Positions 52,207 through 59,610 of a stretch of 64,000 bases of DNA are shown here, piece after piece; the first letter of the stretch is position 1; each line of letters opens with the position of its first letter. Both the position numbers and the translations under genes were made by a program. The stretch is from Actinomycetota bacterium (GTDB lineage Bacteria; Actinomycetota; Acidimicrobiia; IMCC26256; PALSA-555): positions 1 to 64,000 of the forward strand of contig VGBR01000013.1 of assembly GCA_016870355.1 (NCBI GenBank), given 5' to 3'. Below the pieces are notes generated by a model. It was given only the letters and a program-made list of their open reading frames with translations, was not told where the DNA came from and ran no database searches.

Positions 52207-52764
52207 TTACAAACTCGGCGGCCAGGCCTCGGGAGGTATTCGCCCCCAAGCGTGGTCGCGGCGCGCGGCGGCATTCACCGCGATTCGCTCATCAGCGACG
52301 AGCAGATCGCCGTGGACCCTGCCTGGGTGCGTGATGCGAGCACCGCCGTCGAGCTCGACACGTGACGGCGATCCCGTGAGCTCCCACTCAAGGTCCAGTC
52401 CGACGGGCAGGCGTTCGCCCACTTCGTCGTTGGGGTCGTCGACCCTGAGCCCGAACGCTTCGAGCGCGATGCCCCAGTGCTCGAACGGCGTCTCGCACAC
52501 AAGCTCGCCCCAGAGGCCGTCGGCGCGGATCTCCAATGACTCGGGTCGTCGCGGCAGCGCCACCGCGTCATCACGCACGACGATCAACCCGACGTCGGGA
52601 CCTTCGACGAGCGTCCACCACGAGCACACTCGCTGTGCCGGGATCAGCGTGAGCCGAAGCGCGCCAACGAGATCAACATCCGCGAGGTCGAACCCCCACG
52701 TCTCGCGCCAATCGCCGTCATCCGTCGGCGCATGTGGCCGTTCGTCGTTGGGATCGAGATCCAC
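52207..52764 (-). CDS. Hypothetical protein
   Basis: 185 residues from a GTG at 52764. Beta-rich and Trp-rich (WGFDLADVDLVGALRLTLIP, CSWWTLVEGPDVGLIVV, LWGELVCETPFEHWGIALEAF, LEWELTGSP) with a DHAWGRI motif near the end. This pattern of Trp-rich beta strands and HxWG recalls lipocalin-like AttH/hydroxyneurosporene synthase-type domains, but the match is too weak to name. It is divergent from the alpha/beta hydrolase gene at 52782 and in an operon with the MOSC gene. Confidence 0.6.
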   Translation of the reverse strand: MDLDPNDERPHAPTDDGDWRETWGFDLADVDLVGALRLTLIPAQRVCSWWTLVEGPDVGLIVVRDDAVALPRRPESLEIRADGLWGELVCETPFEHWGIALEAFGLRVDDPNDEVGERLPVGLDLEWELTGSPSRVELDGGARITHPGRVHGDLLVADERIAVNAAARRDHAWGRIPPEAWPPSL

Positions 52765-52769
52765 GCAAC

Positions 52770-52775
52770 TACATT
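52770..52775 (+). promoter_or_regulatory. Putative -10 box (TACATT)
   Basis: TACATT ends six bases before the GTG at 52782, in the 17-base gap between two divergent start codons. Confidence 0.4.
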
Positions 52776-52781
52776 GGCACT

Positions 52782-53744
52782 GTGGGTGATCAGGGGCAGG
52801 TGTGTCCTCTCGACGTGGACGGCGTTCGGGTGCACGCCGTCGAATGGACGCCGAGCGGCGCAACGAACGGACGTCGCGTGCTGCTCGTGCACGGCCTGGG
52901 CGCGAACACGCTCTCGTGGGAACCGATCGGTCAGCCGCTCGCCGACGTGCTGAGCGCGCCCGTCACCGCGATCGACCTCGTCGGCTTCGGGCGCACGCGC
53001 TCACCTGGACGACCCGCGTCGATCAGCAGCAACCGCCGACTCGTCACCGCGGTGCTAGAGCAGCTCGGGCCGTCGATCGTCGTCGGCAACTCGATGGGCG
53101 GATCGATCGGCATCGGCGTCGCGGCGCGCCGCCCCGACCTCGTGACGAGCCTCGTGCTCGTGAACCCGGCACTGCCGCACCCGAACCCCGGCGTGCTCGA
53201 CGTGCTGCGCTTCGCCCGCTTCGCACCCGTCATGTTCTCGTCACTCGGCGGACCGATCGTGCGCACTCGCGCCCGGATGCTCGGCCCCGAACGCCTCGTC
53301 GACCTGAGCCTGTCGTGGAGCCTCCACGACCAGACCCGCCTCGATCCCGACCTGCGGCGCCGGCTCATCGAGCTCGCCGCTGAGCGCTACGACTACCCCG
53401 AGGCGCCCGGCGCCTATGCCGAAGCGGCGCGCACGCTCCTCCTGTACCTCGCTCGCGGCCTCAACACCGACCTTGCGAAGGCCGACCGTGCGCCCGTGCT
53501 CATCGTGCACGGCGAGCACGACCGCCTCGTGAGCCTGCTCGCGGCGCGCGCCGCGGCCGAGCGCAACGCCCACGTCGAGCTCGAGGTGCTCGACGGCATC
53601 GGACACGCCCCACAGCTCGAGGCGCCGGATCGCCTCGTGGGGGTCATGGCGGCCTGGCTGGATGCGAGGATGTCGGCGTGGCAGAGCCCAGTCCCGGGGT
53701 CGGTCTCCTCGACGCGCCGGTCCGCGCCTTCGTCGCCCAGCTGA
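52782..53744 (+). CDS. Alpha/beta hydrolase
   Basis: 320 residues. HGLGANTLSW is the oxyanion segment, SIVVGNSMGGSIGI the nucleophile elbow (Ser), LIVHGEHDRLVSL the acid region and GIGHAPQLEAPD the catalytic His, as in esterases and C-C hydrolases. A lid domain covers about 140-230. GTG 52782 fits the -10 spacing. The 3' end overlaps the start of the AAA ATPase gene by 67 bases in a different frame; the last 23 residues, Ser/Arg-rich, are encoded in that overlap. Confidence 0.8.
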   Translation: MGDQGQVCPLDVDGVRVHAVEWTPSGATNGRRVLLVHGLGANTLSWEPIGQPLADVLSAPVTAIDLVGFGRTRSPGRPASISSNRRLVTAVLEQLGPSIVVGNSMGGSIGIGVAARRPDLVTSLVLVNPALPHPNPGVLDVLRFARFAPVMFSSLGGPIVRTRARMLGPERLVDLSLSWSLHDQTRLDPDLRRRLIELAAERYDYPEAPGAYAEAARTLLLYLARGLNTDLAKADRAPVLIVHGEHDRLVSLLAARAAAERNAHVELEVLDGIGHAPQLEAPDRLVGVMAAWLDARMSAWQSPVPGSVSSTRRSAPSSPS

Positions 53745-55057
53745 CCGACGTGCTCGCCACCCTCCGGGGTGGCGGGACGGTGGACCGCGGCGCGCTCGAG
53801 CGCGACGCCGCATTGGAAGCGCAAGCGGTGGCGGCCGGGATCATCGCCTCCGACGGGCATCCGAGCGACGCCGAGCTGCGCTCGTTCGCCGTCGCGCTGT
53901 CGCCATGGTTCGAGTCGCTGCGCAGTGCCGCCCCGTCGTCGCTGCGCGACAGCCCGGCCATCAAGCAGCACCGCGGCTTCCCGATCACGCCGTCGCCGTT
54001 GTTCGAGACGATCGTGACGGCCGACGCCAAGTCCAAGACCGCTCACGCCTGGCGCTACTACGACGCAGCGATGCGCGTCGCGCACGCAGTGTGTGCCGTC
54101 GACGCCACGCCGACGCGCGAGGAGCTGCTGGCGGTCGACACGCTGCGGTCGATGATGTTGCGGCGCATCGGGGCGGCCGACATCGAACGTCCGGCCGACT
54201 CGGGTCGCGATCCTGGTGAGAAGGGTGAACCCGAGAAGACAGAGACCCTCGAGGATCTGCTGGCTGAGCTCGACGAGCTCGTCGGGCTGAAGGCCGTCAA
54301 GACCGAGGTGCGGCTGCTCATCAACCTCGTGCGGGTGGAGAACATGAGGCGGGACCGCAAGCTCGCCGTCGCCGACCGCAGCCTCCACTTGGTGTTCCTC
54401 GGCAACCCCGGCACCGGCAAGACGACGGTGGCGCGCTTGATGTCGCGCTTCTACAAGGTGCTGAAGGTCGTGTCGAAGGGTCACCTGTTCGAGACCGACC
54501 GCTCCGGGATGGTCGCCGGTTATGTCGGGCAGACCGCGCCCAAGGTGAACAAGGCGTGCGACGACGCCAAGGGCGGCGTGCTGTTCATCGACGAGGCGTA
54601 CGCACTCGTGACCGAGAGCGAGCAGGACTTCGGCGCCGAGGCCGTGGCCACGCTCCTCAAGCGGATGGAAGACGACCGCGACGATCTGATCGTGATCGTG
54701 GCTGGCTACACCGAGCCGATGCAGAAGTTCATCGAGTCGAACCCGGGCATCAAGTCGCGCTTCAACAAGCAGATCGAGTTCCCCGATTACAGCGACGACG
54801 AACTCATCGCCATCTTCGAGTCGATCGGCGAAGACGCGCACTACACGCTCGACGCGGGCGCGAAGAAGGCCGTCAAGGCGTGGTTCGCCGCGCAGCCGCG
54901 TGACGCCACCTTCGGCAACGGTCGTACGGCGCGGAACCTGTTCGAGGACTGCGTGACGCGCCAGGCGAGCCGCGTCGTCGACTTGAAGAACCCGACCGAC
55001 AAGCAGCTGACCACGCTCACGAAGGCCGACGTGCCCGACCCGGCCAGCAAGGAATAG
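53678..55057 (+). CDS. CbbX/EccA-like AAA+ ATPase with N-terminal TerB-like region
   Basis: 459 residues. Residues 1-165 are helical with two acidic repeats (ASDGHPSDAELRSF, VDATPTREELLAVD) that resemble TerB-type metal-binding modules. The AAA+ domain has Walker A GNPGTGKTT (242-250), Walker B VLFIDEAYAL (301-310), sensor-like VIVAGYTEPM and a likely Arg finger in SRFNKQIEFPD. This is the CbbX/SpoVK type also found in type VII secretion EccA. GAGGA lies seven bases before the GTG at 53678, supporting this start despite the overlap with the hydrolase. First gene of a five-gene cluster. Confidence 0.83.
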   Translation: MAEPSPGVGLLDAPVRAFVAQLTDVLATLRGGGTVDRGALERDAALEAQAVAAGIIASDGHPSDAELRSFAVALSPWFESLRSAAPSSLRDSPAIKQHRGFPITPSPLFETIVTADAKSKTAHAWRYYDAAMRVAHAVCAVDATPTREELLAVDTLRSMMLRRIGAADIERPADSGRDPGEKGEPEKTETLEDLLAELDELVGLKAVKTEVRLLINLVRVENMRRDRKLAVADRSLHLVFLGNPGTGKTTVARLMSRFYKVLKVVSKGHLFETDRSGMVAGYVGQTAPKVNKACDDAKGGVLFIDEAYALVTESEQDFGAEAVATLLKRMEDDRDDLIVIVAGYTEPMQKFIESNPGIKSRFNKQIEFPDYSDDELIAIFESIGEDAHYTLDAGAKKAVKAWFAAQPRDATFGNGRTARNLFEDCVTRQASRVVDLKNPTDKQLTTLTKADVPDPASKE

Positions 55058-55064
55058 GGCGCTC

Positions 55065-56060
55065 GTGCGGCAACTGCTTGCGGTGGTCGCCGCGCTGTTG
55101 ATGGTCGGTGCTGCACTGATCGCTCGCAGCGCGATCGACGATGACAACGGCAACAACGGGAATGGGGGCGACGGCAGCACGCCCACGCTGTTGTGCGCGG
55201 CCGAGCTCGGGGACGTGTGCGACGAGCTTGCCCGCAGTGAAGACATCGACGTGTTCAAGGCGCCGATGGACGCGGTCGCGAGCGACTCCGACATGCTGCG
55301 CGAGTACGACGGCTGGCTGACGTTCGAACGCAACGCCGAGCGGGTGAGCGAGGCGCGCGTGCGCTCGTCGCTCGACCGAATCACCGAGGAGCCCTCAGAC
55401 CCGATCGCGCGATCACCTGTCGTGATCGCGATCGCCGAGGAGCGGGCCGACGTGCTCGCTACCCAATGCGGTGGCGATGTGACGTGGCAATGCATCGGCG
55501 ACGTCGCCGGAGAGCCGTGGCAGTCGATCGGCGGTTCGATCACATGGGGTGAGGTGAAGCCGGCGCACGCCGACCCGGAATCGACTGGTGAAGGTCTCGT
55601 GATCATCGGTGAGCAAGCGGCGCACTTCTTCGGTACGACCGACCTCTCGCGCGACAACTTCGACGAGGACGAGTTCCTCGAGTGGTTCACGCGGCTCGAG
55701 CGGTCGACCAAGACCGACTCGAACGCGTTCCAGGCGCTCCTGACCTCCCGGTCGGCGACGTACGACGTCGTCGCCACGTTGGAGGCAAGGGCCGACGAGT
55801 CCCTCGCGCAACGGGAGGACGTGCGGCTCATCTACCCTGCGCCTGTGGCCACCGCCGACGTCGTCTTCATCCAGGTCGTGGACGGTGACGACGATCTCGC
55901 CGACATCGTGACCGGCGACGCGGGACAGGATGCGCTGCGCGACGCCGGGTTCCGAGTCGACGACGACGAACGCAACCCGCCGCTGTCCGACGGCAGCCGA
56001 CTCCCGTCGGCTGGCGTGCTCGAGGCGCTCCTCCAGACCTGGCGCGAGGTCACGGGGTGA
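55065..56060 (+). CDS. Solute-binding-protein-like envelope protein
   Basis: 331 residues. Residues 1-22 are an uncleaved or cleaved export signal/anchor (LLAVVAALLMVGAALIARS), followed by an Asn/Gly linker. The rest has the pattern of an ABC-type solute-binding fold: LLCAAELGDVCDELAR, SPVVIAIAEERADVLATQ, ITWGEVKPAHADPESTGEGLVII, DVVATLEARADESLAQREDVRLIYP. It starts eight bases after the AAA gene stop and overlaps the next gene by four bases. It probably senses or binds something outside the membrane for the cluster; it is not next to a transport permease. Confidence 0.65.
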   Translation: MRQLLAVVAALLMVGAALIARSAIDDDNGNNGNGGDGSTPTLLCAAELGDVCDELARSEDIDVFKAPMDAVASDSDMLREYDGWLTFERNAERVSEARVRSSLDRITEEPSDPIARSPVVIAIAEERADVLATQCGGDVTWQCIGDVAGEPWQSIGGSITWGEVKPAHADPESTGEGLVIIGEQAAHFFGTTDLSRDNFDEDEFLEWFTRLERSTKTDSNAFQALLTSRSATYDVVATLEARADESLAQREDVRLIYPAPVATADVVFIQVVDGDDDLADIVTGDAGQDALRDAGFRVDDDERNPPLSDGSRLPSAGVLEALLQTWREVTG

Positions 56061-57847
56061 TGCGCCGACGCACACTGTCGAGCGCGCTCGTCGCGGCGAC
56101 GGTCATCGGCTCGCTCGCGATCGCGGGTACGCCTGCTGGCGCGGGCGGCGGGTGCGTCACCGTCGACATCGCGTCGTCGCCCGAGAAGCTCACGCTGCTC
56201 ACCGAGCTCGGCCAGCGCTTCGAGCGCTCCGACGCCGAGGTGAACGGTCGCTGCATCACGATCAGCGTCGCTCGGGTGTCGTCCGGCGCCGGCGAGCAGC
56301 TCCTGGCGAACGACTGGCCGAAGCCGGCGGTGAACGGTCCGCGCCCGGTGATCTGGTCGCCGGCGGCGAGCACGTGGGGCGGCGTCCTCGATCAGCACCG
56401 CGCCGACGCCGGCAAGGACCCCTACGTCACGACGCCGGGCGACCAGTTCATGCTCACGCCGCTCGTGATCGCGATGCCCCAGCCGATGGCCGAGGCGCTC
56501 GGCTGGCCCGACACTCCCCTCGGCTTCAGCGACATCCTGGCGTTGGCCACCGATCCCGGCGGCTGGGCGACCAAGGGCCATCCGGAGTGGGGTCCGTTCC
56601 GGTTCGGCAAGACCAACCCGCACTTCTCGACGAGCGGGCTCGCCGAGACCGTCGCCCAGTACTACGCCGCGACGGGCAAGACGAGCGGGCTCACGCTCGA
56701 AGACCTCGTGCGCCCCGATGTCGAGACGTTCCAGCAGGGCGTCGAGTCAGCCGTCGTGCACTACGGCGACACGACGCTCACCTTCCTCAACAACCTCTAT
56801 CGCTCCGACCGGCGGGGTGACCCGTTCGGCTACGCGTCGGCGGTCGCAGTCGAGGAGAAGTCGGTGGTCGACTACAACTCCGGCAACCCCGACGGCATCC
56901 TCGACCCGGGTGAGGAGCCGCGCGCACCGCGTGTCCCACTCGTGGCGATCTACCCGAAGGAAGGGACGCTCTTCTCCGACAACCCGCTGATCGTGCTCGA
57001 CGCGCCGTGGGTGTCGGACGCCGAGGCGGACGCGGCCAGCCAGTTCTCCGACTTCGTGACACGCGCGAGCAACCAGAAGCGGGTGCTGAAGTTCGGGTTC
57101 CGACCGGGCAACCCCGACGTCGCGATCGGCAAGCCGATCACCGCCGCGAACGGACTCGACCCGAACCAGCCGCAGACGACGCTCGAAGTACCGGAAGCCG
57201 AGGTGCTGGCGCGGGTCATCGATCAGTGGGACACCGTGCGCAAGAAGGCGCGGGTGCTGCTGGTGATCGACGTGTCGGGTTCGATGGGTGACGAAGCCGA
57301 CCCGAACACCGGCGACACGAAGCTCGACCTCGCCAAGCGGGCCGCCATCGCCGCGCTCGAGGAGTTCCAACCCGATGACCAGGTGGGCTTGCGGGTCTTC
57401 TCCACCGAGATCGCCGACGACGAGCCGACCGACTACCTCGACCTCGTGCCGGTCGGTCCGGTCTCGGAGAACCGCGACGAGCTCGTCGATCGGATCCGGG
57501 GGCTCGTGCCGACCCAAGGCACTCCCCTGTACACGGTGACCCAGGACTCGTACGAGTTGATGGTCGTCGAGTTCGACGAGACGCGCATCAACGCGGTCGT
57601 GCTGCTGAGCGACGGCCGCAACGAGGACGACCGCAACACCGACCTTCAGGGCTTGTTGAAGTTCCTCCGAGGCGAGAACGAAGGCGAGAGCAACACGCCG
57701 GTGCGCATCTTCCCGATCGCATACGGCGGTGACGCCGACATCGGCACGCTCGGACGCGTCGCGGAAGCCACGAACGCAGCCGCCTACTCGGCCGTCGACC
57801 CCGCAACCATCATCAACGTCTTCAACGCCGTCGTCTCCAACTTCTGA
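56057..57847 (+). CDS. Solute-binding domain fused to von Willebrand factor A domain
   Basis: 596 residues. Signal peptide 1-29, then an ABC-type binding-protein domain (about 34-365; VTVDIASSPEKLTLLTELGQ, PRPVIWSPAASTWGGVLDQ, ATDPGGWATKGHPEWG), then a VWA domain from about 398 with the MIDAS motif DVSGS at 405-409, the Thr in TQGTPLY and Asp in LLSDGRN. VWA domains bind a metal ion and protein partners. It begins at GTG/ATG 56057/56060, overlapping the previous gene. A hairpin follows. The pairing with a second, non-VWA binding protein suggests a two-component extracytoplasmic sensor. Confidence 0.83.
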   Translation: MMRRRTLSSALVAATVIGSLAIAGTPAGAGGGCVTVDIASSPEKLTLLTELGQRFERSDAEVNGRCITISVARVSSGAGEQLLANDWPKPAVNGPRPVIWSPAASTWGGVLDQHRADAGKDPYVTTPGDQFMLTPLVIAMPQPMAEALGWPDTPLGFSDILALATDPGGWATKGHPEWGPFRFGKTNPHFSTSGLAETVAQYYAATGKTSGLTLEDLVRPDVETFQQGVESAVVHYGDTTLTFLNNLYRSDRRGDPFGYASAVAVEEKSVVDYNSGNPDGILDPGEEPRAPRVPLVAIYPKEGTLFSDNPLIVLDAPWVSDAEADAASQFSDFVTRASNQKRVLKFGFRPGNPDVAIGKPITAANGLDPNQPQTTLEVPEAEVLARVIDQWDTVRKKARVLLVIDVSGSMGDEADPNTGDTKLDLAKRAAIAALEEFQPDDQVGLRVFSTEIADDEPTDYLDLVPVGPVSENRDELVDRIRGLVPTQGTPLYTVTQDSYELMVVEFDETRINAVVLLSDGRNEDDRNTDLQGLLKFLRGENEGESNTPVRIFPIAYGGDADIGTLGRVAEATNAAAYSAVDPATIINVFNAVVSNF

Positions 57848-57866
57848 CGTGCACAAGTCGGGGCTT

Positions 57867-57909
57867 TTCGGCACGATGGTTGTTGCTATGCAACAAGCAG
57901 CGTGCCGAA
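57867..57909 (+). terminator. Hairpin with GGCACG core inside the VWA-PspA cluster
   Basis: TTCGGCACG (57867-57875) pairs with CGTGCCGAA (57901-57909); an inner TTGTTG/CAACAA helix closes a CTATG loop with two mismatches in between. It lies between two same-strand genes, so it probably ends or attenuates the transcript of the VWA gene. Same core as 3485 and 59554. Confidence 0.65.
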
Positions 57910-57929
57910 TTCCCGCTGAGGGGACGTAG

Positions 57930-58691
57930 ATGGGGGTCCTGGACGCGCTGCCGGAGCACCTGAAGTCGAGCCGGACGGCGAACGCAGTCACTGCGCCGTC
58001 GGCGATCTTGCTTGCGGGTGCCGGAGCCGCGGCGGGGATCCTCGGTGGGCTCGCGGCGCTGCCCGTCATCGGGATCGCGGCGGCAGCGTGGCTGGTGCGC
58101 GTGGCGACGTTGCTGCCTCGCCGTGCGGGCAGCACGCAGATCGACCCGATGAGCATCTCGGACCCGTGGCGCCGGTTCGTGCGTGACGCGCTCGACGCGC
58201 AGCGCCGCTACCGCCGCGCCGTGTCGAAGGCCAACGAAGGACCGATGCGCGATCGGCTCACCGAGATCGGCGAGCGCATCGACGCCGGTGTCGAGGAGTG
58301 TTGGCGCGTCGCCTGCCGGGGTGACGAGCTCGTCGACGCGATCGGCAACCTCGACGTGGCCGGTGCTCGCAAGGACCTCGCCGAGGCGAAGTCCCGTGAC
58401 TCACGCAGCGAGACGCAACACAGCACGGTCGAGTCGCTCCAGGCCCAGGTCGATGCGGCCGACCGCATGATCTCGGTGGCCGAGGACGCGCAGGACCGCA
58501 TCCGTCTGCTCAACGCTCGGCTCGACGAGGCCGTGGCGCGGGCCGTCGAGCTGTCGATCAAGGCCGAGGACGTCGGCGAGGTAGGCCAGCTCGGCGGCCA
58601 GGTCGAAGAGGTCGTGAGCCAGATGGAGTCGCTGCGCGTCTCCCTCGACGAGGTGAGCGGCACCGCCCAAGCCGCTGGGGCTGGCGGATAG
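57930..58691 (+). CDS. Membrane protein with cytoplasmic coiled coil
   Basis: 253 residues. One or two membrane helices at about 22-62 (TAPSAILLAGAGAAAGILGG, LAALPVIGIAAAAWLVRVATL), then a long alpha-helical coiled-coil region (about 95-245; DRLTEIGERIDAGVEECW, VESLQAQVDAADRMISVA). No family was named. GAGGGGA sits five bases before the ATG. It lies directly before pspA; the coiled coil and membrane anchor would suit a docking partner for PspA on the inner face of the membrane (inference). Confidence 0.7.
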   Translation: MGVLDALPEHLKSSRTANAVTAPSAILLAGAGAAAGILGGLAALPVIGIAAAAWLVRVATLLPRRAGSTQIDPMSISDPWRRFVRDALDAQRRYRRAVSKANEGPMRDRLTEIGERIDAGVEECWRVACRGDELVDAIGNLDVAGARKDLAEAKSRDSRSETQHSTVESLQAQVDAADRMISVAEDAQDRIRLLNARLDEAVARAVELSIKAEDVGEVGQLGGQVEEVVSQMESLRVSLDEVSGTAQAAGAGG

Positions 58692-58731
58692 CGGCGGAAC
58701 CACCGCGGTAGAACCACCCCGGGGTGCCCAC

Positions 58732-58737
58732 TAGGGT
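58732..58737 (+). promoter_or_regulatory. Putative -10 box (TAGGGT) of pspA
   Basis: TAGGGT ends eight bases before the ATG at 58746, with no Shine-Dalgarno; this would let pspA be made separately from the genes upstream. Confidence 0.45.
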
Positions 58738-58745
58738 TCGGCCTC

Positions 58746-59540
58746 ATGTGGAAGACGATCAAGAAGTGGTGGCGGTACCTCGCGGCGAAGCTCGGGCTTG
58801 CGCTGGACGAGAAGGCAGACCCGAAGGTCCAGCTCGAGCAGGCCATCAAGGAGGCGCGTGACCAGCACCGCAAGCTCACCGAGCAAGCAGCCAACGTCAT
58901 CGCCAACCAGAAGCAGCTCCAGCTGAAGCTCGATCGAGCGATCGAGGAGTACGAGAAGGCCAACAAGTCAGCCCGTCAGGCGCTGCTGATCTCCGACCAG
59001 GAGACGCGCGCCGGCAACGCCGACAAGGCGTCGAGCATGACGCAGGCCGCGGAGGCGTTCGCCAACAAGCTCATCAACCTCGAGGCCGAGATCGAGAGCT
59101 TGAAGAAGGGTCTGCTCGAGGCGACGCAGGCGTCGGAGAAGGCGAAGGCTGCGGTCACGCAGAACTCGGCAGCGCTCCAGAAGAAGCTCGCCGAGAAGGA
59201 GAAGCTCCTCAGCCAGCTCGACCAGGCGAAGATGCAGGAGCAGATGAACAAGGCGATGGCCACGCTCAACGAGGCCGTCGGCGAAGAAGTGCCCACGTTC
59301 GACGAGGTGCGCAACAAGATCGAGAAGCGCCTCGCGAAGGCTCAGGCCACCTCCGACCTCACCGGTGCATCGGTCGACACGAAGATGCTCGAGGTCGAGC
59401 AGGCGCAGATGAGCGCCGAAGCGCAAGCCCGTCTCTCAGAGCTGCGCTCCGAGCTCGGGCTCGAGAAGCCAGCGGAGAAGGCCGACGCCAAGGCCGCCGA
59501 AGCCAAGAGCGAGGGCGAGGCCAAGGAAGCCAAGAGCTAG
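58746..59540 (+). CDS. pspA: PspA/IM30 family envelope-stress protein
   Basis: 264 residues. Nearly all helical coiled coil with the PspA hallmarks: an N-terminal amphipathic helix (WKTIKKWWRYLAAKLGLAL), DPKVQLEQAIKEARDQHRKL, then long heptads rich in Lys/Glu/Gln/Ala. PspA/IM30 proteins form rings or filaments that bind and repair membranes. The C-terminal 30 residues are an Ala/Lys/Glu-rich tail (EKPAEKADAKAAEAKSEGEA). The cluster lacks the classical PspF/PspBC partners and instead has the AAA, VWA and solute-binding genes. Confidence 0.85.
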   Translation: MWKTIKKWWRYLAAKLGLALDEKADPKVQLEQAIKEARDQHRKLTEQAANVIANQKQLQLKLDRAIEEYEKANKSARQALLISDQETRAGNADKASSMTQAAEAFANKLINLEAEIESLKKGLLEATQASEKAKAAVTQNSAALQKKLAEKEKLLSQLDQAKMQEQMNKAMATLNEAVGEEVPTFDEVRNKIEKRLAKAQATSDLTGASVDTKMLEVEQAQMSAEAQARLSELRSELGLEKPAEKADAKAAEAKSEGEAKEAKS

Positions 59541-59553
59541 CGAGCGGATTCTT

Positions 59554-59590
59554 GGCACGCTGAGGGTGCCATAGGCACTCTCAGCGTGCC
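59554..59590. terminator. Strong bidirectional hairpin with GGCACGCT core
   Basis: 17-base arms GGCACGCTGAGGGTGCC (59554-59570) and GGCACTCTCAGCGTGCC (59574-59590), one mismatch, three-base ATA loop; AAAAA follows on the right and TT precedes on the left. It separates the convergent pspA and mdh genes. Confidence 0.85.
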
Positions 59591-59610
59591 GAAAAACCCT
59601 GGGTGAGGAT

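Follow-up and report, generated by a model that had tools for sequence, protein, structure and literature searches.

PspA-family proteins polymerise on the inner face of the membrane. Surveys of PSP systems have placed PspA in AAA-linked, PspM/ClgR, Lia, band-7 and other contexts (PMC11237479, PMC9239133); for PspA paired with AAA+ ATPases an ATP-driven remodelling has been proposed, and how PspA homologues regulate their assembly when no AAA ATPase accompanies them is described as unknown (PMC11237479). The AAA+ clade of CbbX, SpoVK and EccA consists of chaperones with a dedicated target: SpoVK activates MurG, a peptidoglycan enzyme, and EccA1 has been connected with mycolate synthesis (PMC10659427). 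Here we analyse five co-directional genes (A, S, W, M and P) at 53678-59540 on the + strand of the window (the whole stretch of DNA analysed, 64,000 nucleotides), which comes from a little-studied branch of the Actinobacteria and in which a PspA gene and an ATPase gene of this clade lie in one cluster.

Table 1. Features of the five-gene cluster and its immediate surroundings in the window.
Feature	Position	Strand	Basis
Alpha/beta hydrolase, overlapping the start of A	52734..53744	+	Abhydrolase_1 1.2e-23
A: predicted AAA+ ATPase, CbbX/SpoVK/EccA clade, ~170-aa all-helical N-terminal domain	53678..55057	+	AAA + AAA_lid_6
S: degenerate binding-protein fold, predicted N-terminal TM anchor	55065..56060	+	weak SBP_bac_11, hydrophobic N-terminal segment
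W: predicted exported SBP_bac_11 domain fused to VWA with complete MIDAS	56057..57847	+	start ATG 56060 or GTG 56057
W-M hairpin, splitting A-S-W from M-P	57848..57929	+	-41.1 kcal/mol, z -4.9
M: two predicted N-terminal TM helices, then coiled coil	57930..58691	+	hydrophobic segments, AlphaFold model
P: PspA/IM30 protein	58746..59540	+	PspA_IM30
Hairpin 3' of P, no T-run	59541..59610	+	-42.8 kcal/mol, z -6.9

The gene positions and the tight packing given in the earlier note were confirmed: 7 nt separate the stop of A from the start of S, and the TGA stop of S (56058-56060) overlaps the start of W. The cluster holds no regulator or kinase gene. The hydrolase is a lineage-specific upstream neighbour outside the core, found immediately 5' of A in six related loci and directly 5' of PspA in L183, a locus without A-S-W-M. 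Both hairpins lack a T-run. The one behind P is indeed very strong, but the terminator that had been read there is not called by a terminator scan; P and the malate dehydrogenase gene converge there, and the hairpin probably marks the end of the transcript. The W-M hairpin had gone unmentioned in the first reading: comparable hairpins, differing in sequence yet keeping the long stem, occur in two of three genus-mates examined (L057, L058), and are lacking in L060, L064 and L061 as well as in more distant relatives. The two hairpins may set separate dosage for A-S-W and M-P.

Related loci were collected by W, giving 80 named loci, and gene order was scored with profiles of all five proteins, with the order counts resting on the 32 loci that have adequate flanks; the two locus collections overlap, some contigs being present in both (L067 and L057, for example). 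L067, from the MAG Baikal-deep-G33, is one of the relatives by which the window is placed in the class Acidimicrobiia. The order A-S-W-M-P is kept in 25 of these 32 loci, S and M are retained with W in 31/32, and a MurJ gene (match 1.4e-86) stands between M and P in 17/32; the genome of the window carries MurJ on another contig. Many Acidimicrobiia have the unit between proA and proB-obg and the lineage of the window has it between the alpha/beta hydrolase and mdh-dnaJ-like-idh, whilst in other families (L201, L202, L203, L205) A-S-W-M-P lies in unrelated flanks. Since the order recurs in most scored loci, and also in distant families where the flanks differ, the cluster is not a chance grouping: it is a real, conserved unit, and the absence of conservation that would have spoken against the earlier note was not found. 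Distance matrices of the gene families correlate for W-M (r 0.86) and A-P (0.79), which is no proof of coupling because the control pair A-Obg reaches 0.81. Two records titled as Bifidobacterium breve MAGs (L114, L140) carry Acidimicrobiia-type cluster genes, with W 56% and 79% identical to that of the window, and are probably mislabelled.

Natural variants reveal separable sub-modules, which together with the MurJ link were absent from the first reading. In the family of the window, L183 and L182 lack exactly A-S-W-M with collinear flanks on both sides (DUF1214-MOSC-DUF7065-hydrolase and P-mdh-dnaJ-idh), the hydrolase and pspA of L183 being ~100 bp apart. A and P occur alone in L179, separated by 34 nt; A-M-MurJ-P without S and W is found in L065, L180 and L181; the proB-proA slot holds P-MurJ in L187 and P alone in L197; and L066 shows a W-M-S arrangement. 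S-W-M without A or P accounts for 15/80 loci (some truncated at contig ends), some beside housekeeping genes, including ribosomal L25-pth. Among 120 genomes, full-length A is present in 15, and every one of these, from 12/12 genera, also encodes PspA (A with cluster-type PspA: Fisher p 1e-14, a value that ignores shared ancestry), while W is absent from 4 of the 15 and W occurs without PspA in 4/21 genomes. Because the variants nest, we read them as layers: PspA appears to be the obligate partner of A, M and MurJ suggest a next layer, and S and W an outer, separable input. That outside part can also work otherwise, since S-W-M occurs without A and P and W without PspA.

Several loci carry insertions. 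A LivK-like Peripla_BP_6 lipoprotein gene lies between M and P of the S-W-M-P loci L184 and L186, with a guanylate-cyclase-domain gene behind it in L184; this insertion is a further sensor-like element. Between A and S, L047 (3858-6167) holds a protein kinase-PQQ/BamB-like fusion gene in reverse orientation, and L131 has a reverse-strand gene of similar size. Between W and M, a subtilase is inserted in L048 (6665-8338), and a subtilase plus one or two large RCC1-repeat proteins in L128 (11854-16795). L208 (7181-10317) has a distant W, then, where M would be, a membrane protein of 248 aa, and then P, with adjoining Tat-like genes, an arrangement that suggests an older W-M-P triad. Duplicated M-W units adjoin pspA in L050 (1-7082), beside fatty-acid synthesis genes and with neither A nor S within that stretch.

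The ATPase matches AAA (3e-19) and AAA_lid_6 (9e-19) in Pfam. Against NCBIfam it scores 269 bits with spore_V_K (cut-off 423), 246 with CbbX (459) and 240 with EccA (467), thus reaching none of the equivalog cut-offs, and its closest solved relative in the PDB is CbbX at 43% identity. Walker A K248 and Walker B D305/E306 are invariant across 45 homologues, the sensor-1 GY signature (G343, Y344), N355 and the sensor-2 arginines including a second arginine finger (R416, R419) are present in 45/45, and of the two candidates for the arginine finger, R361 is invariant and position 359 has R in 27 homologues, K in 8. Because it falls below all equivalog cut-offs, with CbbX nearest and its catalytic residues invariant, A is assigned from its sequence to a distinct family inside the CbbX/SpoVK/EccA clade. 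The N-terminal domain of about 170 residues is confidently helical in the predicted model, and a profile search found no solved relative for it (CdvC/Vps4 matches at E 1.3 are noise). A TerB-like N-terminus, as proposed earlier, amounts to the resemblance of a D-G-x3-D-x-E motif with conserved D59, D64 and E66 and finds no statistical support: Pfam TerB matches 1/44 homologues at E 0.097 and profile-profile comparison with hhalign gives a probability of 14%. A defence-system reading was discarded, as a PADLOC scan returned generic AAA matches and nothing else.

P is a clear PspA (PspA_IM30 3.1e-28 over residues 6-237, 99 bits vs a cut-off of 33.9) and the sole PF04012 match genome-wide; PspC (PF04024), the canonical Psp partner, has no match in the genome. 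PspA/Vipp1 structures exist in the PDB, and the tail of P is poorly conserved. PspA proteins from genomes without A differ in their tail and have a few more changes at conserved positions, in a comparison that favours such an outcome by construction. M matches no Pfam family; its two hydrophobic segments are present in most homologues and its AlphaFold model is all-helical at moderate confidence (pLDDT 73). A PspA-like fold for M was considered and rejected, as a search of the model against the PDB gave no significant match, just weak BAR-like coiled-coil matches. The coiled coil is probably cytoplasmic, and the loop between the TM helices is short, leaving little surface outside.

W matches SBP_bac_11 (2.6e-7) and VWA (2.6e-8), and S gives a weak SBP_bac_11 match (E 0.014). 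S and the binding domain of W are homologous (hhalign probability 97.8, E 1e-12, 280 columns), so that S and W form a paralogous pair, and both have conserved paired cysteines (C33/C66 of W in 88-89/96 relatives). Judged by its residues, the VWA domain of W is predicted to hold a complete, intact MIDAS: for the pattern DxSxS...T...D, D405, S407, S409 and D519 are found in 96/96 and T489 in 94/96. W has a signal peptide, lipobox-like in 73/96 relatives and not evidently so in the genus of the window; on this ground it is exported and A and W are placed on opposite sides of the membrane. An exported W cannot touch a cytosolic A, so that any link must run through M or S.

Starting from the conserved order, the nested presence, the absence of A-S-W-M as a block, the homologies and the intact active sites, we tentatively propose a modular envelope-maintenance system as a possible function, in which A would remodel PspA, M would tether it and S and W would sense the outside; here all physical contacts, the ligand and the direction in which signals run are our inference. 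P would polymerise at the inner face of the membrane, and A, as a hexameric remodelling ATPase, could disassemble or redeploy the PspA assembly in the manner of Vps4 for ESCRT-III. M would form a membrane hairpin whose cytoplasmic coiled coil may hold PspA, A or both where they act. The binding-protein domain of W may take a ligand and its MIDAS metal site a second partner; S would be the membrane-anchored paralogous partner of W, and with M as the relay the two could signal the state of the cell wall or of lipid II. The guarded process would be export of peptidoglycan precursors, because MurJ, a lipid II flippase, is recurrently inserted between M and P. PspA remodelling is favoured by the retained gene order, by the constant company of A and PspA, by A-P alone, A-M-MurJ-P and the precise block loss, and by clean catalytic AAA and MIDAS residues; against it count the greater proximity of A to CbbX than to Vps4, a helical N-domain lacking an identified relative, the small outside surface that M offers for a signal and the poor conservation of the P tail that an AAA protein might pull. 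The earlier idea of an outside sensor joined by an ATPase to PspA is thus retained as a conserved grouping that includes the membrane coiled coil, and has lost its MoxR pairing and its TerB domain. The more specific version, a bacterial machine akin to ESCRT whose PspA polymers are recycled by a CbbX-clade ATPase instead of Vps4 and which is gated from outside by a metal-dependent MIDAS VWA/binding-protein sensor of lipid II export or cell-wall state, is rather unlikely.

A could instead be a chaperone dedicated to an enzyme of the cell wall, be it MurJ or a different protein of peptidoglycan or lipid II, as SpoVK is for MurG, with PspA stabilising the membrane there and not being the substrate. 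The clade of A, the precedents of SpoVK and EccA1 (PMC10659427) and the MurJ gene inside the cluster in many relatives argue for this, but the A-P pair persists in L179 without MurJ, S, W or M, A was never seen without PspA and MurJ lies apart from the cluster in the genome of the window: we regard this as unlikely. Doubtful, too, is an arrangement of two loosely coupled modules, S-W-M serving extracytoplasmic assembly or adhesion and A/P membrane repair, with shared position reflecting co-regulation only. The loci with S-W-M alone (some cut by contig ends) and those with A-(M)-MurJ-P without S and W speak for it; the five-gene order is nevertheless constant across families and flanks, A-S-W-M are lost together and a W-M-like-P set recurs in the distant L208. 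It is very improbable that S and W serve as the binding proteins of an importer of solutes whose permease is encoded elsewhere: their SBP_bac_11 folds and a FecCD permease upstream of W-M-S in L066 would fit, but the FecCD operon has its own binding-protein gene, ABC permease and ATPase genes are missing from the cluster of the window and from the 25 commonest families of 79 neighbours, and importers do not typically carry a fused VWA domain whose MIDAS is kept in almost every homologue. The transporter reading was rejected on these grounds, in agreement with the earlier note, which had seen no permeases beside the binding-type proteins and had named permease partners elsewhere as the finding that would count against it. 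A chaperone pair of the MoxR or chelatase type, which the earlier note had invoked on seeing AAA and VWA genes in one cluster, is scarcely credible and was set aside, with A in the CbbX/SpoVK clade and without a match to the MoxR-family AAA_3 profile at E<1, and with the exported W separated from it by the membrane.

The cluster is a compact, repeatedly conserved unit in which one PspA is joined by a candidate ATPase for its remodelling, a putative membrane tether and a putative outside sensor; gene-loss variants and a link to the lipid II flippase come with it. The cluster offers a direct test of whether PspA is recycled by an AAA ATPase other than Vps4, and likewise of the way in which conditions outside the cytoplasm could be passed on to PspA when no two-component system takes part. 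The A-S-W-M-P arrangement is in the main text of neither of the two published PspA surveys: VWA is absent from the main texts of PMC11237479 and PMC9239133 (an unlabelled example could sit in the supplements), MurJ is absent from that of PMC11237479, and a wider literature search found no matching system.

Genes for a MoxR-type AAA protein and a CoxE-type VWA protein are likewise found together, but A and W belong to other families; a genuine MoxR-CoxE pair lies beside proA, adjoining the cluster, in many Acidimicrobiia relatives (L049, L065), and is separate from it and divergently oriented. With ClgR-PspA-PspM-PspN, PspABC/F and LiaIHGFSR the cluster shares a PspA that is joined by a membrane partner and a putative input of stress, whereas its genome is without PspC, no regulator or kinase is part of it and M lies outside the Pfam families. 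In the AAA-PspA systems of PMC11237479 with their likeness to ESCRT-III/Vps4, a PspA-family protein is also encoded with an AAA+ ATPase and some longer operons also carry a binding-protein domain; there, however, the AAA partner has two AAA domains, the first copy inactive, or is Vps4-like, and comes with ABC ATPase/permease genes, whereas A is a single-AAA protein of the CbbX clade with a helical N-domain, accompanied by S, W and M and by no transporter genes. With SpoVK, CbbX and EccA, finally, A shares an AAA domain with the GY sensor-1 and conserved arginines, and these relatives each serve a single dedicated target, cell-envelope synthesis among them (PMC10659427); the helical N-domain of A is of neither the SpoVK nor the EccA type, and its apparently obligate genomic partner is PspA.
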